A stretch of DNA of 64,000 nt, taken from positions 5,477,501-5,541,500 of the forward strand of contig NZ_CP121668.1 of assembly GCF_029714425.1 (NCBI RefSeq). Reading direction: 5' to 3'. Both the position numbers and the translations under genes were made by a program. This stretch comes from Bradyrhizobium sp. CB2312 (lineage in GTDB: Bacteria > Pseudomonadota > Alphaproteobacteria > Rhizobiales > Xanthobacteraceae). This document shows positions 5,334 to 16,487 of this stretch, piece after piece (within the stretch, counting starts at the first letter, position 1; each line of letters begins with the position of its first letter). The notes under the pieces were generated by a model, which did not search any database, was not told the origin of the DNA, and saw only the letters and a program-made list of their open reading frames with translations.

Positions 5334-5386
5334 CCAATGCGGCCATAACGGACATGCCACTGCGGACCGTCAAGCGTCGGCTTTTG
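5334..5386 (+). repeat. Dispersed repeat at IS1182 copy 1 left flank
   Basis: The sequence CCAATGCGGCC...GCGGACCGTCAAGCGTCGGCTT recurs with a few changes at 12878-12930, left of the second IS copy. Both IS copies therefore sit in or beside the same kind of repeat. Confidence 0.7.
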
Positions 5387-5389
5387 ACC

Positions 5390-7041
5390 CTGGCTGTGTG
5401 AAAAGTCACGAGTCGGCTAGGATTCTTCCGTTTCCTGATGGGGGATACGGATGGGACGCTTCGTTGAAGGCGCGGACAGATCCCAGCTGACGCTCTTGCC
5501 GGAATGTCTGGAGGATTGGGTAGGCGAGGACAACGCGGTCCACGTGATCGATGTGTTCGTCGAGGCGCTCGACCTGCATGGAATGGGGTTTGAGCGTGTG
5601 ATCGCCAAGGAGACGGGCCGGCCCTCCTATCATCCGGCAGTCCTTCTGAAGCTTTACATCTACGGTTATCTCAATCGGCTGCAATCCAGTCGCCGCCTGG
5701 AACGTGAGACGTGCCGCAATGTCGAGGTAATGTGGCTGATTGGGCGCCTGGCTCCCGATCACAAGACGATCGCCGATTTCCGGAAGGATAACGGCGCGGC
5801 GATCCGGAAGGTTTGCGCGAAGTTCGTTGCACTATGCCGGCAAATGGGCCTGTTGCAGACCGCAAGCGTCGCAATCGACGGCAGCAAGTTCAAGGCGGTG
5901 AACAACCGCGACCGCAACTTCACGCATGCCAAGATGGCAAGGCGGATGGCGCAGATCGAGGAAAGCGTCGGTCGATATCTGCGTCAACTCGATAGCGCCG
6001 ATCGGCAGGAGCCATCGGAAGCGATCAGCATCAAGACGACGAGGATCAAGGAAAAGATCGCTCGGCTGAAGCAGGAGATGAGCCGCCTGGAAGTGCTTGA
6101 TGCGCAGATGCGCAACACGCCGGATCAACAGATATCGCTGACCGATCCGGATGCCCGTTCGATGGCCACCAGCGGACGCGGATCGGGTGTCGTCGGCTAC
6201 AACGTCCAGGTCGCGGTGGACACCGAACACCATCTGATTGTGACGCACGAGGTCATAAACGTCGGCAACGACCGTGGGCAGCTTGCTCGGATGTCGAAGC
6301 AGGCCAAAGAAGTGCTCGCAGTGGACAAACTCGATGCGGTCGCCGATCGTGGCTACTTCGACGGAGAGGAGATATTGGCCTGCGAAGAGGCTGGCGTTGC
6401 AGTCACCTTGCCCAAGCCCATGACGTCGAACGCCAAGGCGGAGGGCCGGTTCGGCAAACAGGACTTCGCCTACCTGCCTGATGAGGATGTCTACCGCTGC
6501 CCATCGGGCCAGCTGCTGCCCTATCACTTCACCAACATCGAGCATGGAATGACGCTGCGCCGTTACTGGTCGACGGCGGCATGCCAAGGCTGCGCGATCA
6601 AGAGCCAATGTACGCCGTCCAAGGAGCGCCGGATCACGCGCTGGGAGCATGAGCATGTGGTCGAGGAGGTCCAGCGACGGCTCGATTCCAATCCTGACGC
6701 CATGCGGACGCGACGTGAGACAGTCGAGCATCCCTTCGGCACGATCAAAGCCCGTATGGGTGCGACCCACTTCCTGATGAAGCGCCTACGGAATGTCGCC
6801 GCTGAGATGGCGCTGCATGTTCTCGCCTATAACCTCACACGGGTGATGAACATCGTCGGCAAACCGCGCCTGATTGCAGCCATCCGCGCCGCCTGAAGGC
6901 CGGAAAGCGCGTCCAAAACCGCAATACCCCGTCGCGATACCCACTTTGGCCGGTCATTGGACGATCCGATGCGTCAGCACCGGCCGCCTGCAATGATTGG
7001 CGACCACGCCGCGTCCGACCTATCCGTTTGCACACAACCAA
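5390..7041 (+). mobile_element. IS1182-family insertion sequence, copy 1
   Basis: The element is about 1,652 bp with imperfect terminal inverted repeats CTGGCTGTGTGAAAA and, at the right end on the other strand, TTGGTTGTGTGCAAA. It is flanked by a perfect 4-bp duplication GACC (5386-5389 and 7042-7045). Comparison with copy 2 at 12981-14632 shows one base difference across the whole element (t at 6974, c at 14565). It carries one transposase gene and no passenger. Confidence 0.85.
5451..6896 (+). CDS. IS1182-family DDE transposase (copy 1)
   Basis: The 481-residue protein has the order expected of IS1182 transposases. An N-terminal InsH-like helical domain with VFVEALDL and HPAVLLKLYIYGYLNRLQSSRRLE lies in about 20-85, then the DDE core with AIDGSKFKAVNNRDRN (first Asp near 143), a coiled stretch at 160-210, AVADRGYFDGEEI with the second Asp near 300, and a C-terminal TVEHPFGTIKARMG carrying the catalytic Glu near 426. 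Four cysteines (YRCPSGQ, CQGCAIKSQC) form a likely zinc knuckle between them. It appears intact and so potentially active. The protein is identical to that of copy 2. Confidence 0.95.
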   Translation: MGRFVEGADRSQLTLLPECLEDWVGEDNAVHVIDVFVEALDLHGMGFERVIAKETGRPSYHPAVLLKLYIYGYLNRLQSSRRLERETCRNVEVMWLIGRLAPDHKTIADFRKDNGAAIRKVCAKFVALCRQMGLLQTASVAIDGSKFKAVNNRDRNFTHAKMARRMAQIEESVGRYLRQLDSADRQEPSEAISIKTTRIKEKIARLKQEMSRLEVLDAQMRNTPDQQISLTDPDARSMATSGRGSGVVGYNVQVAVDTEHHLIVTHEVINVGNDRGQLARMSKQAKEVLAVDKLDAVADRGYFDGEEILACEEAGVAVTLPKPMTSNAKAEGRFGKQDFAYLPDEDVYRCPSGQLLPYHFTNIEHGMTLRRYWSTAACQGCAIKSQCTPSKERRITRWEHEHVVEEVQRRLDSNPDAMRTRRETVEHPFGTIKARMGATHFLMKRLRNVAAEMALHVLAYNLTRVMNIVGKPRLIAAIRAA

Positions 7042-7109
7042 GACCCGAAGCGGCCCTTGGCACTCCTTTATATGACGAGTCGCGCAAGGTGAGCGCGAGA
7101 CCAAAGCGA

Positions 7110-8029: not shown

Positions 8030-9073
8030 TCAGTAAAGTCCAAAGACACGGACCAGCGCGCTGGCCACCCAAGCAGCGAGCCTGCTGTAATGCATGTGTA
8101 CATAGACGGTGGAGTTGAGCGGCGGCGCCGAAGTGCCTGGATCAAACCGGATGCGCGCAATCTGCGTCGCAGGCCGGTCTCTTAGTTGCATTTGCGTTCC
8201 GGCGTACACGGCCGAGACCGGGAGTATCTGCGCGATCTTCCCGGGGATGCGCCGGTTCCCGAACACGACAAAGACATCTTTGCCGACCTTCGGCTCGATC
8301 AGGCGCTCGTTCGGGATGTACCAGTCAACGAAGGTGTCGGCCGGATCGAGGATTTCGGCGATCGAAACGCCTGCCGTCAAGGACTGACCGACTTGCGCGA
8401 TTCCGGTCGAAACGACGCCGGCGGTGGGGGCGAAGACTTTCCCTTGGCCGAAGTGGCGCTGTACCTCGTCCAGGCGGCCGCGCAGCTGCTGAATGAAATC
8501 ATCCAGCGAAGCGAGTTGCACGGCCGATTCCGCCACTTCGGCCTCATGGGAGACCACGGCTTTGCCGGCAGAAGCGCGTTCTCGCAGAACTTCCATACGG
8601 AACGTTACCGTTGCGGAGGTCATGGCGTTCACTTGCTTCGCTGCCTCTTCGGTCACTTGCAAATATGCGCGCGCTGCGGTGAGCGATTCTTGCGCAATGC
8701 GAGCCTTGATCCGCAACTCCGCCGTGCGGCCGTTGATGTCCGCCAGCGCGCGCATATAGGTTGCGACAATGCTGTCTTGTTCCGGCGAAACCACCTCCGC
8801 AATCTCCTCGCCTGCCTTCACGACCGCGCCAGGCTCCATGTCGATTTTGGTGACCTGCACGGTATAAGGCAGTGACACGAGTTGGCGCGGCGAGGTGACG
8901 GTGCCGGGCCCACCGAGATAGACAACGGGCGCGCCAAAATAGATGACGAAGAATGCGAGGACGCCGAACACGATCGCAGCATAGACGAACCGTACCACTC
9001 GTCCCGCCGCGCGCCGGCGGCTTTCGACAGGATCGGGTACGCTGGGATCGAGGCGGTTGATTTTGATGTCCAT
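8030..9073 (-). CDS. HlyD-family membrane fusion protein
   Basis: The 347-residue protein has one membrane segment at about 29-53, two half-lipoyl motifs at about 72-96 and 212-245, and a helical hairpin likely to form a coiled coil at 105-205, ending in a beta-barrel segment with ALVRV near the C-terminus. Such proteins bridge inner and outer membrane in export. There is no ABC exporter or RND pump nearby; the gene follows the glycosyltransferase gene by 12 bases. This pairing resembles synthase-dependent polysaccharide systems such as Alg8-Alg44, but no PilZ domain is visible here, so c-di-GMP control, if any, would have to lie elsewhere. Confidence 0.85.
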   Translation of the reverse strand: MDIKINRLDPSVPDPVESRRRAAGRVVRFVYAAIVFGVLAFFVIYFGAPVVYLGGPGTVTSPRQLVSLPYTVQVTKIDMEPGAVVKAGEEIAEVVSPEQDSIVATYMRALADINGRTAELRIKARIAQESLTAARAYLQVTEEAAKQVNAMTSATVTFRMEVLRERASAGKAVVSHEAEVAESAVQLASLDDFIQQLRGRLDEVQRHFGQGKVFAPTAGVVSTGIAQVGQSLTAGVSIAEILDPADTFVDWYIPNERLIEPKVGKDVFVVFGNRRIPGKIAQILPVSAVYAGTQMQLRDRPATQIARIRFDPGTSAPPLNSTVYVHMHYSRLAAWVASALVRVFGLY

Positions 9074-9085
9074 TGCGCGGTGCCC

Positions 9086-10336
9086 TCAAACCGGGGTTTC
9101 CAGCAGGGCTCGACGAACACGCGGTGGCACGAAGTCGTCGTGGCGCGACGTGGCGAAGATGATCTCCGACGAGTAGGAGAAGAACCGGGCGCATTTCAGA
9201 TACACACCCTGATAGAAGGGGAAGATTAGCGACGCACCAAGAGCAAAGAAGCCAATAGTTCGATTGAACATGACGAACGCAAGCGCCATGTTGAAAAAAG
9301 AGATCCAGAGCAGCAACACGTAGATCGCACCGAGAAATGAGGCCGCGCTCGAGCCGAACAGCAGAACGACGTAAGCCAGGTAGAACGGCAATGCTAGCGT
9401 CGGGACGAGGTCAAAGACGATGAAGTCCAGCCTCTGTAGCGTGTCCGGCAAGCGTTCGAACGGATGAAAGAAGCTCAATTCACCGTACATCATGAATCGG
9501 ATTCTCAACGCATCGCGATCCCAGCGCGCGCGCTGGCGCAACAAGCCTATGCCGCTTGCCGGGCCGTCCGTTTCCGCCCAGGCGTCGGGAACGAAGCGAA
9601 TGAGATAACCGAGGCGGCGCAGCCGCAAACTGTACTCCAAGTCCTCGCCGGGCCCGACATCGAGTCCGCCGTGCCGCAGGAACGCATCGCGACGATACAT
9701 TGAGCAGGCGCCAGACAGGCACGCGATCGCGCCGGCGACGTCCAATATGGAACGGCCGGCGCTGATCGACATCAGGTACTCGACGCTTTGCAGTCCGGTC
9801 CAGAGCGAGTCGCGTTCGTTGCTGAGCGCGATATTGCCGCTCGCGCCTGCAACGCGTGGATCACGGAACACGGCCGCAAGCCGCGCTACCGCGGTAGGCT
9901 CGAAAACCGTATCCGCATCGACGGTCAGAATGAGATCGCCGCTGGCAAATCGGGCGCCGGCATTGATCGCCGGGCTGCGGCCGCAACGCGTGCCATGACA
10001 GATGAGCATATCCACCAGGCCGAGCGCGCGTGCCCGCTCCGCTACGGCACGAGTCTGATCGGTCGAGCCATCGTCCACGACGATAATTTCGACCGGCCGC
10101 AATGTCTGCCGGTGAAGTGATGCAATTGTTGGTTCGAGACCGGCCCCGCCGTTGAAGGTCGGAATGATGACGCTGACCGTGGCGCCCTCGGCAGGCAGCT
10201 CGGCGCTCGATCGACGCATGCCGAAGAATGCCAGCGACAACAGCGACAGCGTGAAACGGGGAATGTCGAATATCAGCACCGCCAGGAAGAGCTGCAACGG
10301 GTCGGTCCGGGCGACGAGTTGCAACATCTCGAACAT
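9086..10336 (-). CDS. Processive family 2 glycosyltransferase
   Basis: The 416-residue inner-membrane enzyme has a hydrophobic N-terminal segment, a GT2 catalytic domain and three to four membrane segments near 310-400. Visible motifs, counted from an upstream ATG four codons earlier, are VVDDGS (90-95), DAD (144-146), GEDLE (234-238) and QRARW (272-276), the set found in processive synthases such as those for cellulose, hyaluronan or poly-N-acetylglucosamine. The sugar cannot be deduced. I use the ATG at 10336 because GGGAGG lies 4-5 bases upstream; the ATG at 10348 has none. It leads an operon with the membrane fusion and zinc-ribbon genes, behind a FixK/FNR-type box. Confidence 0.85.
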   Translation of the reverse strand: MFEMLQLVARTDPLQLFLAVLIFDIPRFTLSLLSLAFFGMRRSSAELPAEGATVSVIIPTFNGGAGLEPTIASLHRQTLRPVEIIVVDDGSTDQTRAVAERARALGLVDMLICHGTRCGRSPAINAGARFASGDLILTVDADTVFEPTAVARLAAVFRDPRVAGASGNIALSNERDSLWTGLQSVEYLMSISAGRSILDVAGAIACLSGACSMYRRDAFLRHGGLDVGPGEDLEYSLRLRRLGYLIRFVPDAWAETDGPASGIGLLRQRARWDRDALRIRFMMYGELSFFHPFERLPDTLQRLDFIVFDLVPTLALPFYLAYVVLLFGSSAASFLGAIYVLLLWISFFNMALAFVMFNRTIGFFALGASLIFPFYQGVYLKCARFFSYSSEIIFATSRHDDFVPPRVRRALLETPV

Positions 10337-10401
10337 GGAGCCTCCCATAAGCGGCTGACCAGACGCTTGGGCGAGAGGTAGCCCGATGGACTCACCGATG
10401 T

Positions 10402-10415
10402 TTGAGCTGGATCAA
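10402..10415 (-). promoter_or_regulatory. FixK/FNR-type box upstream of the glycosyltransferase operon
   Basis: The palindrome TTGAGCTGGATCAA fits the FixK2/FNR consensus TTGA-N6-TCAA exactly. Its centre is about 72 bases before the operon start codon. With activator spacing of -41.5 the transcript would begin near 10367, about 31 bases before the start codon, a normal class II arrangement. Confidence 0.75.
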
Positions 10416-10605
10416 TGCCCCGTCATGTCCGGCGCATGGATGTCATCGGCGGACTGGCTCCTTGAAGCCGACCTTGTTGTTGATTCAATTCTTATCGTTT
10501 GGCTGAACCTGTGACCGACCTGGTGGGTGTCGCCGACGACCCTCTTGACCCTTCGCAATATCCGGCCGGTTCAAACCAGTTCCGCCAAGGTCGAACCACC
10601 TATCC

Positions 10606-10622
10606 AATGCACAAGGTGCATT
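10606..10622. promoter_or_regulatory. Perfect palindrome, possible operator
   Basis: AATGCAC and GTGCATT pair perfectly around a 3-base spacer in the 558-base gap between the glycosyltransferase operon and the sulfate permease gene. It could be an operator, or chance. Apart from this, two FixK-type boxes and a GrlR scar, I see nothing in that gap. Confidence 0.3.
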
Positions 10623-10641
10623 CACGAACCGCTCAGGGTCC

Positions 10642-10750
10642 TTACGCCCCCTCGCATCAGCGAGACAGAGGCCGCAAGGCGCAGGCTGCGCTTGTCGGCG
10701 AGCGCGCGATCAATCACGCTGAAGAGGCCGGCCCGACTTCAAGAAGGCCG
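10642..10750 (-). pseudogene. Decayed GrlR-family gene 3' fragment
   Basis: From CGCATCAG through AGGCCGCAAGGCGCAGGCTGCGCTTG to CCGACTTCAAGAAGGCCG the sequence follows the 3' end of the complete GrlR gene at 16696-16820, with deletions and substitutions that break the frame. About 100 bases of the gene remain. Confidence 0.7.
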
Positions 10751-10759
10751 TGCGCAGTA

Positions 10760-10773
10760 TTGATCTTGATCAA
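10760..10773 (+). promoter_or_regulatory. FixK/FNR-type box upstream of the sulfate permease
   Basis: TTGATCTTGATCAA is a perfect palindromic match to TTGA-N6-TCAA. Its centre lies about 128 bases before the permease start at 10895; activation from -41.5 would put the transcript start near 10808. Confidence 0.75.
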
Positions 10774-10894
10774 TGGCCTGCCAGGCGATCGCTGAACTCG
10801 ATGACTTTCCAACCCATGAAGTCCTGTTGCGGCGCAGCAGGTTTGCAGCGAACGTCACAGCGGATGCAACGTGGCCTGCCGGGAGGGAGCATTG

Positions 10895-12646
10895 ATGAAG
10901 CACTGGCTGCCCGGACTCGAGACACTTCGCCGGTATCAGGCAGCCTGGCTTCCACACGACGTCTTCGCAGGTCTCGTCCTTGCAACAATGCTGGTCCCGG
11001 TCGGCATTGCCTATGCAACCGCATCGGGCCTGCCCGGCATCTATGGCCTTTACGCAACCATCGTGCCGCTGCTGGCCTACGCGTTGTTCGGCCCAAGCCG
11101 CATTCTTGTCCTCGGACCGGACTCGGCACTGGCAGCAATCCTCCTGGGCGTCATTGCTCCGCTGGCTCAGGGCGATCCTATGCGCGCCGTGACGCTCGCC
11201 GGCATGATGGCGATCGTCTCGGGCACGGTTTGCATCCTGGCAGGCATCGCGCGTCTCGGCTTCGTCACCGAGCTTCTCTCCAAGCCGATCCGCTACGGGT
11301 ACATGAACGGAATTGCGTTGACGGTATTGATCAGCCAACTGCCGAAGCTACTCGGCTTTTCCATCGACAGCGAAGGACCGCTGCGGAGCCTGTGGGCGAT
11401 CGCCAGCGCGATCCTTGCCGGAGAGATAAACTGGGTCGCGTTCGCAATCGGGTTCGCCACGTTGATCGTGATCCTGCTTCTCAAGAACAGCAAGCTGCCG
11501 GGCATCCTGATTGCGGTCGTCGGGGCCACGATCATCGTTGGGACGCTGGATCTCGGAACGCTGCATGCCGTCAAGGTGCTGGGCCCTCTTCCTCAGGGGC
11601 TGCCGGCCTTCGTCATCCCGTGGATCACCACAAGCGACATCGTTTCAGTGGTGCTCGGCGGCTGCGCAATAGCGATGGTCTCGTTTGCCGATACCAGCGT
11701 GCTTTCACGTGCTTACGCCGCGCGATTGGGAGACCGGGTCGATTCCAACCAGGAAATGGTCGGGCTTGGTGCCGCCAATCTGGCGGCCGGATTTTTCCAG
11801 GGGTTTCCGATCAGCAGCAGCAGTTCGCGGACCCCTGTCGCCGAAGCCGCCGGCGCCCGTACGCAACTCACCAGCGTCGTAGGCGCACTTGCCATCGCCT
11901 TGCTGCTTTTGCTCGCGCCAAATCTCCTCCAGCATTTGCCGACCGCCGCATTGGCCGCCGTCGTCATTGCGGCGGCGCTTAGCCTTTTTGAGATTGCCGA
12001 CCTCAGGCGGATCTATCGCATCCAACGCTGGGAATTCTGGCTGGCGGTCGTCTGCTTTGTCGGTGTCGCCGTGTTCGGAGTGATCCAGGGAATTGGTCTT
12101 GCGATCGTCCTCGCGATTATCGAATTCCTGTGGGATGGTTGGCGCCCTCATTCCGCAATATTGGGGCGCGCCCAGGGCGTGAAGGGTTATCACGACATCA
12201 CGCGATATCCGGATGCACGGCGGATCCCGGGGCTCGTGCTGTTCCGCTGGGATGCGCCGTTGTTTTTCGCCAACGCCGAGTTCTTCAGGGAACGCATCCT
12301 GCATGCCGTGGCGACCTCACCGACGCCGGTGCGCTGGCTGGTCGTCGCCGCAGAGCCGGTGACCAGCGTCGATGTAACCGCCTGCGACGTGGTGGCCGAG
12401 TTGGACCAGACGTTAAACGCGGATGGTATCGAGCTCTGCTTCGCCGAGCTGAAGGATCCCGTGAAGGACAAACTGAAGAGATTTGGCTTGTTCGCACAAT
12501 TGGGAGAGCATTACTTCTTCCCAACCATCGGCGTCGCCGTCTCCCGCTATCTCGAGATCAACAACGTGGAGTGGGAGGACTGGGAAGACCATGCTGTGCA
12601 AGCCTCGGAGCCAGTGGCGAGCCGAAATGCCAAATCCGGCTCTTAG
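10895..12646 (+). CDS. SulP-family sulfate/anion permease with STAS domain
   Basis: This 583-residue inner-membrane protein shows the SulP transporter core in about 20-410, including the signature-like GLPGIYGLYATIVPLLAYALFG cut here as GLPGIYGLYA, several hydrophobic helices, and SSSSSRTPVAEAAGARTQ in the middle. A cytoplasmic STAS domain follows at about 435-545 (PGLVLFRWDAPLFFANAEFF). Family members import sulfate or exchange it for bicarbonate or dicarboxylates. Start at 10895 is supported by GGGAGG directly upstream. A FixK/FNR-type box lies upstream and a secreted arylsulfatase lies 2.2 kb downstream beyond IS copy 2, so sulfate uptake is a reasonable inference. Confidence 0.9.
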   Translation: MKHWLPGLETLRRYQAAWLPHDVFAGLVLATMLVPVGIAYATASGLPGIYGLYATIVPLLAYALFGPSRILVLGPDSALAAILLGVIAPLAQGDPMRAVTLAGMMAIVSGTVCILAGIARLGFVTELLSKPIRYGYMNGIALTVLISQLPKLLGFSIDSEGPLRSLWAIASAILAGEINWVAFAIGFATLIVILLLKNSKLPGILIAVVGATIIVGTLDLGTLHAVKVLGPLPQGLPAFVIPWITTSDIVSVVLGGCAIAMVSFADTSVLSRAYAARLGDRVDSNQEMVGLGAANLAAGFFQGFPISSSSSRTPVAEAAGARTQLTSVVGALAIALLLLLAPNLLQHLPTAALAAVVIAAALSLFEIADLRRIYRIQRWEFWLAVVCFVGVAVFGVIQGIGLAIVLAIIEFLWDGWRPHSAILGRAQGVKGYHDITRYPDARRIPGLVLFRWDAPLFFANAEFFRERILHAVATSPTPVRWLVVAAEPVTSVDVTACDVVAELDQTLNADGIELCFAELKDPVKDKLKRFGLFAQLGEHYFFPTIGVAVSRYLEINNVEWEDWEDHAVQASEPVASRNAKSGS

Positions 12647-12716
12647 CCGAGATTTGAGCCCTTTCGTGCGGCGATGTGCAGACGAATGGGTTTCGAAATC
12701 GTCCTCCAAAAACAAG

Positions 12717-12776
12717 GCGGACGCGACGAGTCCATCCGTACACCCCCTACGCCCGTCGCATCAGCTTGAGCGAGGG
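12717..12776. repeat. Short GrlR 3'-flank scar
   Basis: GGACGCGACGA...CCCCTACGCCC and CGCATCAGCTTGAGCGAG follow the junction between the GrlR-gene stop region and its 3' flank at 16670-16730. Only about 18 bases of coding end remain. The rest of the 12647-12980 gap holds the dispersed repeat described next and no gene. Confidence 0.65.
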
Positions 12777-12877
12777 GAAGCCCGACGAAGCACCGATTCG
12801 CCCGCCAGCCACGCTGGCCGGATGCCAGCTCGCTATCGGCTGTTGCCTCGAAAACGCGTAACGAGGCGTAACGTTCG

Positions 12878-12930
12878 CCAATGCGGCCGTAGCGGACTTG
12901 CGGCTGCGGACCGTCAAGCGTCGGCTTGTG
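12878..12930 (+). repeat. Dispersed repeat left of IS1182 copy 2
   Basis: CCAATGCGGCC...GCGGACCGTCAAGCGTCGGCTTGTGGGCCC is the counterpart of 5334-5386, continuing for about 50 bases before the IS end. Confidence 0.7.
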
Positions 12931-12980
12931 GGCCCTTAGCGGACCAATCGAGGCAGTGTGCCCGACGGTAGCTTTTGATC

Positions 12981-14632
12981 CTGGCTGTGTGAAAAGTCAC
13001 GAGTCGGCTAGGATTCTTCCGTTTCCTGATGGGGGATACGGATGGGACGCTTCGTTGAAGGCGCGGACAGATCCCAGCTGACGCTCTTGCCGGAATGTCT
13101 GGAGGATTGGGTAGGCGAGGACAACGCGGTCCACGTGATCGATGTGTTCGTCGAGGCGCTCGACCTGCATGGAATGGGGTTTGAGCGTGTGATCGCCAAG
13201 GAGACGGGCCGGCCCTCCTATCATCCGGCAGTCCTTCTGAAGCTTTACATCTACGGTTATCTCAATCGGCTGCAATCCAGTCGCCGCCTGGAACGTGAGA
13301 CGTGCCGCAATGTCGAGGTAATGTGGCTGATTGGGCGCCTGGCTCCCGATCACAAGACGATCGCCGATTTCCGGAAGGATAACGGCGCGGCGATCCGGAA
13401 GGTTTGCGCGAAGTTCGTTGCACTATGCCGGCAAATGGGCCTGTTGCAGACCGCAAGCGTCGCAATCGACGGCAGCAAGTTCAAGGCGGTGAACAACCGC
13501 GACCGCAACTTCACGCATGCCAAGATGGCAAGGCGGATGGCGCAGATCGAGGAAAGCGTCGGTCGATATCTGCGTCAACTCGATAGCGCCGATCGGCAGG
13601 AGCCATCGGAAGCGATCAGCATCAAGACGACGAGGATCAAGGAAAAGATCGCTCGGCTGAAGCAGGAGATGAGCCGCCTGGAAGTGCTTGATGCGCAGAT
13701 GCGCAACACGCCGGATCAACAGATATCGCTGACCGATCCGGATGCCCGTTCGATGGCCACCAGCGGACGCGGATCGGGTGTCGTCGGCTACAACGTCCAG
13801 GTCGCGGTGGACACCGAACACCATCTGATTGTGACGCACGAGGTCATAAACGTCGGCAACGACCGTGGGCAGCTTGCTCGGATGTCGAAGCAGGCCAAAG
13901 AAGTGCTCGCAGTGGACAAACTCGATGCGGTCGCCGATCGTGGCTACTTCGACGGAGAGGAGATATTGGCCTGCGAAGAGGCTGGCGTTGCAGTCACCTT
14001 GCCCAAGCCCATGACGTCGAACGCCAAGGCGGAGGGCCGGTTCGGCAAACAGGACTTCGCCTACCTGCCTGATGAGGATGTCTACCGCTGCCCATCGGGC
14101 CAGCTGCTGCCCTATCACTTCACCAACATCGAGCATGGAATGACGCTGCGCCGTTACTGGTCGACGGCGGCATGCCAAGGCTGCGCGATCAAGAGCCAAT
14201 GTACGCCGTCCAAGGAGCGCCGGATCACGCGCTGGGAGCATGAGCATGTGGTCGAGGAGGTCCAGCGACGGCTCGATTCCAATCCTGACGCCATGCGGAC
14301 GCGACGTGAGACAGTCGAGCATCCCTTCGGCACGATCAAAGCCCGTATGGGTGCGACCCACTTCCTGATGAAGCGCCTACGGAATGTCGCCGCTGAGATG
14401 GCGCTGCATGTTCTCGCCTATAACCTCACACGGGTGATGAACATCGTCGGCAAACCGCGCCTGATTGCAGCCATCCGCGCCGCCTGAAGGCCGGAAAGCG
14501 CGTCCAAAACCGCAATACCCCGTCGCGATACCCACTTTGGCCGGTCATTGGACGATCCGATGCGCCAGCACCGGCCGCCTGCAATGATTGGCGACCACGC
14601 CGCGTCCGACCTATCCGTTTGCACACAACCAA
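12981..14632 (+). mobile_element. IS1182-family insertion sequence, copy 2
   Basis: This is a second full-length copy, in the same orientation as copy 1 and differing from it by one base (14565). The flanking tetranucleotides are GATC on the left (12977-12980) and GACC on the right (14633-14636), so a perfect target duplication is not present. Left flank GCTTTTGAT and right flank GACCCGCAACGG resemble those of copy 1, indicating the same preferred target. Confidence 0.85.
13042..14487 (+). CDS. IS1182-family DDE transposase (copy 2)
   Basis: The 481-residue product is identical in sequence to the transposase of copy 1, with the same N-terminal InsH-like domain, AIDGSKF and DRGYFDGEEI motifs, zinc-knuckle cysteines and VEHPFGTIKARMG ending of the catalytic core. 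The open frame is intact. Identity over the whole element implies recent duplication or gene conversion. Confidence 0.95.
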   Translation: MGRFVEGADRSQLTLLPECLEDWVGEDNAVHVIDVFVEALDLHGMGFERVIAKETGRPSYHPAVLLKLYIYGYLNRLQSSRRLERETCRNVEVMWLIGRLAPDHKTIADFRKDNGAAIRKVCAKFVALCRQMGLLQTASVAIDGSKFKAVNNRDRNFTHAKMARRMAQIEESVGRYLRQLDSADRQEPSEAISIKTTRIKEKIARLKQEMSRLEVLDAQMRNTPDQQISLTDPDARSMATSGRGSGVVGYNVQVAVDTEHHLIVTHEVINVGNDRGQLARMSKQAKEVLAVDKLDAVADRGYFDGEEILACEEAGVAVTLPKPMTSNAKAEGRFGKQDFAYLPDEDVYRCPSGQLLPYHFTNIEHGMTLRRYWSTAACQGCAIKSQCTPSKERRITRWEHEHVVEEVQRRLDSNPDAMRTRRETVEHPFGTIKARMGATHFLMKRLRNVAAEMALHVLAYNLTRVMNIVGKPRLIAAIRAA

Positions 14633-14696
14633 GACCCGCAACGGACGTCGTGGAGGGACGCCTAGCAAGCGGCATAGGCCCGTCACAATCGGTGTC

Positions 14697-14710
14697 TTGA
14701 TCCAAATCAA
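14697..14710 (+). promoter_or_regulatory. FixK/FNR-type box upstream of the arylsulfatase
   Basis: TTGATCCAAATCAA matches TTGA-N6-TCAA, with symmetric TTGAT/ATCAA arms. The centre lies about 110 bases before the sulfatase start codon; a transcript start near 14745 would give a leader of about 69 bases. Confidence 0.75.
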
Positions 14711-14813: not shown

Positions 14814-16487
14814 ATGAGTATCCGAAAGAGTGTTGCGCACGGCATGTTCGCGCTGCTCGGCGCGATGGTGGTTGCGGCCCCTCAAGCGACCGCGCAGCAG
14901 CAGAAGGGGCCGAATGTCGTCGTGCTAATGACGGATGACACTGGATGGAATGATTTCGGCGCCTATAGCGGGGGTGGCGCCGCGCTCGGCCATCCAACGC
15001 CAAACATCGACCGGATCGCTAAGGAAGGCGCGACGTTCACGAACTGGTATGGGCAAGCAAGCTGCACGGCAGGCCGCGCCTCGTTTATTACCGGACGCAT
15101 TCCGATCCGTTCGGCGCTCTCCATCGTGGTCGCTCCGGGCGATGAGAATGCGCTCAAAAAGGAGACGCCGACCATAGCCGAATTTTTTCAAAAGAACGGC
15201 TACTCCACCTACTTTTCCGGCAAGTGGCATCTCGGTGATAAGCCGGAGTCCTATCCGATTGAGCACGGGTTCGACGAGATGAAGGCGTTCGCCGCATACT
15301 ATCCGGGCGTCTACACCTATGCCGACACGTCCAAGTGGTTTCATCCATGGTTTCCCTCGTACAACCCAGAGATCGCGAAGGCCTATTTTGAAGTCGTAAA
15401 CATGTACGAGTGGGAGGGAGTTGCCGGACAACCGGCGAAGAGAGGCGAGTACATTACGTACGATTACCTCGCCAACTTTGACGTCCGGCAGGCTGATTAC
15501 GCAATCGACTACATCAAGAAGCACGCCAAGGACGCTAAGCCGTTCTTCATGGACGTCAATTTCATGAAGATGCACAACCCGACCAACGCATCATCAAAAT
15601 TCGCCGGGAAGTCCCGGTTGGGAGATTACTCGGATTCGGTGATGGAACTCGATGACGACATCGGCCGGATCATGGACGCGATCCGTGCCGAAGCGCCGAA
15701 TACGATTGTGATCGTAACGGCAGACAACGGTGCGTGGCAGGATGCTTATCCTGATGCGGGCACCACGCCTTTCCGCGGCGAAAAGGGTTCAGCATTTGAA
15801 GGAGGCTGGCGCGTACCCGGGTTAATGTGGTGGCCCGAACACATTCCCGCCGGTGCAAACTACCATGAAATGATGTCCCATATCGACTGCTGGGCAACGC
15901 TCGCCAAGATGGTCGGCCTGACCCCGCCGCCGCACGGCGCATGGACCGACGATAATGGCAGGCCAATCTACTTCGACAGCATCGACAACAGCGAGTACAT
16001 CCTCGGCCGTACGAAGCACTCGGCACGAAGGTCGTGGATCTACATCGACGGCGAAAACTTCATGGGAGCGCGGGCGGATGTCGGCGGTGATTCAACTAAC
16101 GCCGATCTCAGCATCGCGTGGAAGTATCTCTGGACGGCCAAGGACACTTGGCTCGGTCCGGAACAAAATCTCGGCTCGATTGGCTCGGTCTACAATCTGA
16201 CGATGGATCCATTCGAGAAATACGACATGGTTTTCAACGGCGCGATGTCGGCACGTATGCCATTACAGTCGCCGGGCAAGTACACCGGACAGGACAACGG
16301 CTGGGTCTTGGCGCTGATCTTCCCCGTCGTGATGGAGTTCAACAAATCGATCGTGGATTATCCAAGCATCAAGCGTAAGCCGGGCGGAGCCTCGAACGAT
16401 TGGAGACCGGATCTACAGCGCCCGGAAAACCCGGTCCCGATGCTGGATATGAAGCACCTGCCGAATATCAAGGGGAGCGGTGGATAA
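14814..16487 (+). CDS. Secreted arylsulfatase (FGly sulfatase)
   Basis: The 557-residue enzyme has a Sec signal peptide ending near ATAQQ (residues 26-29), then a sulfatase fold. VLMTDDTGWNDFG (about 37-49) gives metal-binding Asp41 and Asp42. CTAGRASFITGR begins with Cys84 in a C-x-A-x-R motif, the site converted to formylglycine. FSGKWHLGD and VTADNGAWQD carry further active-site Lys, His and metal ligands. It would hydrolyse sulfate esters in the periplasm. I start at 14814 because GGAGGAAG lies just upstream. No dedicated formylglycine-generating enzyme or anaerobic maturase is in the window. A FixK/FNR-type box upstream suggests low-oxygen expression. Confidence 0.9.
   Translation: MSIRKSVAHGMFALLGAMVVAAPQATAQQQKGPNVVVLMTDDTGWNDFGAYSGGGAALGHPTPNIDRIAKEGATFTNWYGQASCTAGRASFITGRIPIRSALSIVVAPGDENALKKETPTIAEFFQKNGYSTYFSGKWHLGDKPESYPIEHGFDEMKAFAAYYPGVYTYADTSKWFHPWFPSYNPEIAKAYFEVVNMYEWEGVAGQPAKRGEYITYDYLANFDVRQADYAIDYIKKHAKDAKPFFMDVNFMKMHNPTNASSKFAGKSRLGDYSDSVMELDDDIGRIMDAIRAEAPNTIVIVTADNGAWQDAYPDAGTTPFRGEKGSAFEGGWRVPGLMWWPEHIPAGANYHEMMSHIDCWATLAKMVGLTPPPHGAWTDDNGRPIYFDSIDNSEYILGRTKHSARRSWIYIDGENFMGARADVGGDSTNADLSIAWKYLWTAKDTWLGPEQNLGSIGSVYNLTMDPFEKYDMVFNGAMSARMPLQSPGKYTGQDNGWVLALIFPVVMEFNKSIVDYPSIKRKPGGASNDWRPDLQRPENPVPMLDMKHLPNIKGSGG

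Follow-up and report, generated by a model that had tools for sequence, protein, structure and literature searches.

Conserved FixK/FNR-type boxes upstream of sulfatase, FGE and SulP genes suggest a low-oxygen regulon in Bradyrhizobium

We analysed a stretch of 64,000 nucleotides of Bradyrhizobium sp. CB2312 (contig NZ_CP121668.1, positions 5,477,501 to 5,541,500; hereafter the window), in which three boxes of the form TTGA-N6-TCAA (hereafter strict) stand upstream of a glycosyltransferase gene, a SulP permease gene and a type I sulfatase gene. Beyond the window, the broader result is that a FixK/FNR-type box is conserved upstream of operons that pair a sulfatase with its maturation enzyme FGE (formylglycine-generating enzyme), and upstream of other Bradyrhizobium sulfatase genes. 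The six features concerned are, with positions counted from the first letter of the window:

9086..10348, minus strand: GT2 glycosyltransferase gene (PF00535, E 1.8e-31)
10402..10415, minus strand: FixK/FNR-type box TTGATCCAGCTCAA, upstream of the glycosyltransferase gene and starting at -67 from its ATG
10760..10773, plus strand: FixK/FNR-type box TTGATCTTGATCAA, upstream of the SulP gene and starting at -135 from its ATG
10895..12646, plus strand: SulP permease gene with a STAS domain (PF00916 and PF01740; TIGR00815, 398.2 bits for a cut-off of 380.45)
14697..14710, plus strand: FixK/FNR-type box TTGATCCAAATCAA, upstream of the sulfatase gene and starting at -117 from its ATG
14814..16487, plus strand: type I sulfatase gene (PF00884) with the active-site motif CTAGR at residue 84

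The SulP permease was assigned from its Sulfate_transp and STAS domains, both above cut-off. The CTAGR motif of the window sulfatase fits C/S-x-P/A-x-R, which we take to be the rule for the modification motif. This protein also matches a solved arylsulfatase (7aj0, E 3.9e-60). For the glycosyltransferase, no NCBIfam model scored above its own cut-off.

The preliminary description of this DNA had located the three boxes, each before a separate gene, and had read them as FixK2 sites. The strict scan recovered exactly these three positions and no other strict match in the 64 kb, i.e. 3 matches for 0.53 expected, a number attained by one of 100 dinucleotide shuffles. With the looser FixK2 consensus TTG[AC]-N6-[TG]CAA, 7 matches were found for 3.2 expected, which was attained in 5 of 100 shuffles. 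Two of the three window sites have the perfect form TTGAT-N4-ATCAA. The boxes of FixK2-dependent units of B. diazoefficiens lie at -22 to -287 from the start codons (PMC9104804, Table 2), and the three window distances (-67, -135 and -117) fall inside this range; the SulP box would start at -111 if an alternative GTG start were used. Box form, target-like distance and an encoded cognate regulator, three marks of a FixK2/FNR-regulated promoter, are found together. The boxes look like real FixK/FNR-type operators, as had been proposed, and are probably functional.

The genome scan that the preliminary description had called for was done as a pattern scan over the single 9.78-Mb contig. It returned 207 strict sites versus 35 for the reversed pattern, and 59 perfect sites versus 1; the window sites are part of this genome-wide set. 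The neighbours of 50 of the 59 perfect sites were considered, and Pfam was run on 40 adjoining proteins. Three sulfatases, two FGE proteins (one a remnant) and one SulP paralogue were found among them. Most of the 40 are of other kinds, among them a COX1 oxidase, a CRP/FNR regulator, binding proteins, dehydrogenases and sensor kinases, or match no family, so sulfate handling is one theme of the site set and not all of it.

The host encodes an intact FixK2. From the 40 matches to HTH_Crp_2 in the genome, the protein L189 (at 7255618) was recognised as FixK2, being 93% identical to PDB 4I2O over 232 residues. It keeps Cys183, where the crystallised variant has a serine (PMC9104804, in part). A fixN-type COX1 gene, preceded by TTGATTTCAATCAA at -72 from the ATG, served as a positive control. 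Under microoxia, FixLJ of B. diazoefficiens induces fixK2, according to the portion of the literature used here; FixK2 activates from such boxes, and the nosR start lies 40.5 bp from its box (PMC5582078, in part). We take FixK2 to be the leading candidate activator.

Then, we investigated the conservation of the SulP box. A search of 146 genomes gave SulP orthologues of 75% identity or more in 54 of them, and the closest named loci belong to Bradyrhizobium. The comparison covered 30 loci from the genome search and 80 named loci, counted as distinct 300-bp upstream regions. Among the 57 distinct Bradyrhizobium upstreams, 21 contain the strict box; the reversed pattern was found in none, and shuffles gave a mean of 0.14 with a maximum of 2. 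In the alignment of 17 dereplicated box-bearing promoters, whose eight core bases agree because the promoters were selected on them, the flanks show an identity of 0.31-0.33, which is near random. Moreover, three SulP loci (L022, L023 and L065) carry TTGATCTGCGTCAA, the very box of the FixK2-dependent gene bsl7992 (PMC9104804, Table 2). The low-oxygen reading of the SulP box appears well supported. The window sulfatase box is fairly supported in this predicted role: the strict box was found in 3 of 8 orthologues with at least 66% identity (own gene included), and in L153 and L155 the sequence around it differs greatly from that of the window.

As side observations on this family, the window SulP is about 75-78% identical to proteins of Pseudomonas, Thiocapsa, Caballeronia and others, which suggests horizontal spread. 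A second SulP-family gene is divergent from an Asp-Al_Ex permease gene, and a perfect box stands between the two at genome position 6577074 (L231:2074).

The strongest footprint that we found by comparing sequences is the conservation of the FGE box. Seven proteins of the genome match PF03781. The protein encoded at 4921671 is a true FGE, since it matches solved FGE structures (E 5.4e-80), the two catalytic cysteines near the C-terminus included. The box TTGATCTAGATCAA begins 80 bp before the ATG of its gene, and a Cys-type sulfatase gene directly follows. Across the genus, an FGE match at E <= 1e-60 was detected in 95 of the 146 genomes. Among the best 30 loci, with at least 79% identity, a strict box is present in 22, at no more than about 250 bp from the aligned start, and in 29 a sulfatase gene comes next downstream on the same strand. 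The FGE boxes have the perfect form; in 17 dereplicated boxes the six inner bases, which were not selected for, read T[CT]TA[GA]A, for a flank identity of 0.29-0.37. A second strict match, TTGACCCGCTTCAA, located 338-664 bp before FGE in 11 of the 30 loci, was left out of the count. Two other PF03781 matches of the genome (L240 and L242) have no strict box, and three (L243-L245) fall outside the aligned set. Two further FGE loci of the genome were noted. At 4526486 (L213:2001-2440, up to 4526925), a perfect box precedes an FGE remnant and then a sulfatase gene; only the C-terminal part of the remnant matches PF03781, and the promoter box is kept despite the degraded gene. The second FGE-sulfatase pair (5280867-5283369, L253) has no promoter box, its sole strict match being inside the FGE coding sequence.

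Sulfatase genes were then surveyed in the whole genome. Among 13 PF00884 matches, 11 are full-profile, and a strict site lies within 1.5 kb upstream of 6 of these 11, or 5 once L253 is dropped. The five box-bearing genes are the window gene and those at 7157814, 4527102, 3105220 and 4922847, the last behind the FGE gene, and all five boxes are perfect. The same survey was made in G002, G004 and G005, which are the first three single-contig relatives of the list and were not picked by outcome. It gave 20 PF00884 rows, 14 of them full-profile; 8 have a strict site and 7 of the 14 a promoter box after removal of L271 (4/8 in G002, 3/5 in G004 and 0/1 in G005). Several of the G002 genes are orthologous to genes of our genome, and the G004 site at L267, inside a stretch with one open frame, is the least certain. 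The match TTGATCCATGTCAA, found before the sulfatases L165, L167, L176, L253 and L271, was rejected as a promoter box, as it lies in frame within the upstream FGE gene or remnant; L253 and L271 were removed from the promoter counts, and L165, L167 and L176 are in no count.

From these comparisons, we consider it probable that the sites are operators of a FixK/FNR-type low-oxygen regulon that includes sulfatases, FGE and SulP, with FixK2 as the first candidate for the activator. As oxygen falls, a FixK/FNR-type dimer would bind TTGA-N6-TCAA upstream of the promoters and recruit RNA polymerase; binding, activation rather than repression, and dependence on oxygen are here inferred from sequence and from known FixK2 systems. 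The SulP permease and the window sulfatase would be two members of a larger Bradyrhizobium set, with further sulfatases and the FGE-sulfatase operon. By analogy with B. diazoefficiens, the levels of SulP, FGE and several sulfatases would go up at low oxygen. FGE would act in the cytoplasm as the maturase of the sulfatases; these, presumably exported, would free sulfate from sulfate esters, their supposed substrates, and SulP would import sulfate or a related anion.

This raises a puzzle. FGE needs O2 as a co-substrate to oxidise the cysteine of the sulfatase, a reaction that takes place at a copper site (PMC12123546, in part), yet the FGE gene bears a conserved box for low-oxygen activators. 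In our genome no protein scored above the cut-off of the radical-SAM maturase profile TIGR03942 (best score 59.6 bits, for a cut-off of 349.45), which leaves FGE as the one route of maturation recognised. The genome also contains nifH. We lean, by a little, towards a regulon in which FixK/FNR-type control raises sulfatases, SulP and the O2- and copper-dependent FGE as oxygen falls, so that the harvest of organic sulfate continues in microoxic soil or nodules. If this is true, more of an oxygen-consuming maturation enzyme would be made just when O2 is scarce, no anaerobic maturase being recognised, and a well-studied rhizobial oxygen regulon would extend to organic sulfate use. Sulfate esters might then supply part of the sulfur for the Fe-S proteins on which nitrogen fixation and respiration at low oxygen depend.

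Several counts weigh against the low-oxygen regulon. The strict box is missing from 36 of the 57 Bradyrhizobium SulP upstreams, from 5 of the 8 window-sulfatase orthologues and from 8 of the 30 FGE loci, and it was found in 0 of 36 SulP upstreams from other named organisms. Six of the 11 full-profile sulfatases of our genome have no promoter box, nor does the sole one of G005, and per-column identity revealed no consistent -10 hexamer 3' of the boxes. The binomial tail for five box-bearing sulfatases, given 59 perfect sites in the genome, is 2.7e-8, but it treats related genes as independent, L249 and L250 being close paralogues. The many orthologues without a box would also fit functionless chance matches, as would the density of the genome, at which 1.35 strict sites are expected per 64 kb (P(>=3) = 0.16). 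We nevertheless judge chance to be improbable as a general explanation, given that the SulP and FGE boxes are conserved amid near-random flanks, that the FGE inner bases hold to one motif, and that the shuffled and reversed controls fall far behind. Chance is hardest to dismiss for the box of the glycosyltransferase. It is possible, though we would not favour it, that the sites are real and serve another CRP/FNR regulator: a FixK-like paralogue, an FnrN/AadR-like protein whose N-terminal cysteines sense oxygen directly, or an NnrR-type regulator responding to nitric oxide. The 40 HTH_Crp_2 matches leave room for such a user, since inspection by eye picked out among them five more FixK-like proteins and another (L185) with an N-terminal cysteine cluster; moreover, FnrN and FixK are closely related and their DNA-contacting residues highly conserved (PMC4999443, in part). 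Against this, FixK2 itself is encoded, nearly identical to the B. diazoefficiens protein, and the box words match published FixK2-associated boxes, although use by a paralogue is compatible with both facts.

The last alternative concerns two copies of an insertion sequence (IS) that lie in the window:

5380..7047, plus strand: left IS copy, with a DDE transposase
12971..14638, plus strand: right IS copy, with a transposase gene identical to the left one

These copies, in like orientation, differ by 2 mismatches in 1668 bases and bracket the glycosyltransferase operon and SulP. Together with the presence of three boxes in 4.3 kb, this might indicate a mobile IS-bounded unit with its own three-gene low-oxygen programme. 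The preliminary description had placed all three sites in the IS-bounded region; this holds for the first two, whereas the third (14697) and its sulfatase lie outside the IS pair. It had also seen a small local programme in their clustering. At the genome density, about 0.86 triplets of such a span are expected genome-wide, a number that already accounts for the clustering. In addition, seven other genomes, mostly drafts, contain two of the three genes, either the glycosyltransferase and SulP (G047, G068 and G084) or the sulfatase and SulP (G081, G140, G073 and G083). The pair is on different contigs in all of them except G047, where the two genes are on one contig at 0.54 and 8.35 Mb. Around SulP, clustering of open reading frames in 24 loci gave, beyond SulP and overlapping frames, no cluster common to more than 5 of the 24. 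The local cluster was thus rejected as a special unit, and we hold the mobile programme to be very improbable.

Returning to the low-oxygen regulon, its closest known counterpart is the FixLJ-FixK2 regulon of B. diazoefficiens. The two share the box TTG[AC]-N6-[TG]CAA, its range of positions, a near-identical FixK2 and a fixN-type COX1 gene with a box (PMC9104804 and PMC5582078, in part). They differ in that Table 2 of PMC9104804, which lists 37 genes in 26 units, names no sulfatase, FGE or SulP. As in FGE-sulfatase operons, an FGE that has both of its catalytic cysteines is encoded directly upstream of a Cys-type sulfatase; what differs is that our system adds a conserved activator box of the low-oxygen type, despite the O2 consumption of FGE (PMC12123546, in part). 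As for the FNR/FnrN-type anaerobic regulons, the cysteine-bearing L185 is a candidate regulator here. The FNR consensus, too, is matched by the perfect form that the FGE boxes share with two of the three window sites.

The word sulfatase, even as part of a longer word, is absent from the main text of PMC6515984, PMC9104804, PMC10454721, PMC4999443, PMC2908626, PMC6710368 and PMC10888616, and, as a word start, from PMC4842269. Literature searches in which sulfatase or FGE was paired with FixK, FNR, Bradyrhizobium or bacteroid gave no link among the matches listed. Sulfatase and FixK occur together in four papers of the literature covered, and in two of these the mentions proved unrelated. The proteins that are up in microoxia in the portion of PMC6515984 used here include an aryl-sulfate sulfotransferase and one protein of a sulfate ABC-transporter, neither being marked as a FixK2 target. 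The novelty of a link between sulfatases and FixK/FNR is provisional, because the 2008 FixK2 regulon paper and the supplements lie outside this literature scope.

A further gene of the window accompanies the glycosyltransferase:

8030..9073, minus strand: HlyD-like membrane-fusion protein gene (PF13437), second gene of a probable operon

The glycosyltransferase search gave 12 loci, 11 of which have a HlyD match next to the gene, and this pair, kept together in relatives, suggests a synthase-type polymer system. The low-oxygen reading of the glycosyltransferase box is weak: among 11 genomes the strict box was found in 2, namely our own and that of the closest orthologue (L139), where the flanks are different, and in none of the other nine. 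The preliminary description had linked an exported polymer to sulfate handling; the sulfate theme emerged stronger than could be known from the window, whereas the polymer part depends on this box of only 2 of 11 genomes. A HlyD-family protein, blr7872, is up in microoxia (transcript 14.1-fold, protein log2 3.5) and is unmarked as a FixK2 target in the portion of PMC6515984 used here; in a homologue search with the window HlyD, no name tied it to blr7872.

Finally, the genome scan revealed other perfect boxes of note. One of them, TTGATCTGGATCAA, at genome position 5466465 (L219:2001), lies 11 kb before the window and precedes a DUF937 gene. Three perfect boxes are gathered within 1.2 kb near 7369000 (L232:2001-3183), and two flank a FixK-like gene near 2445000 (L237:2001-4992).

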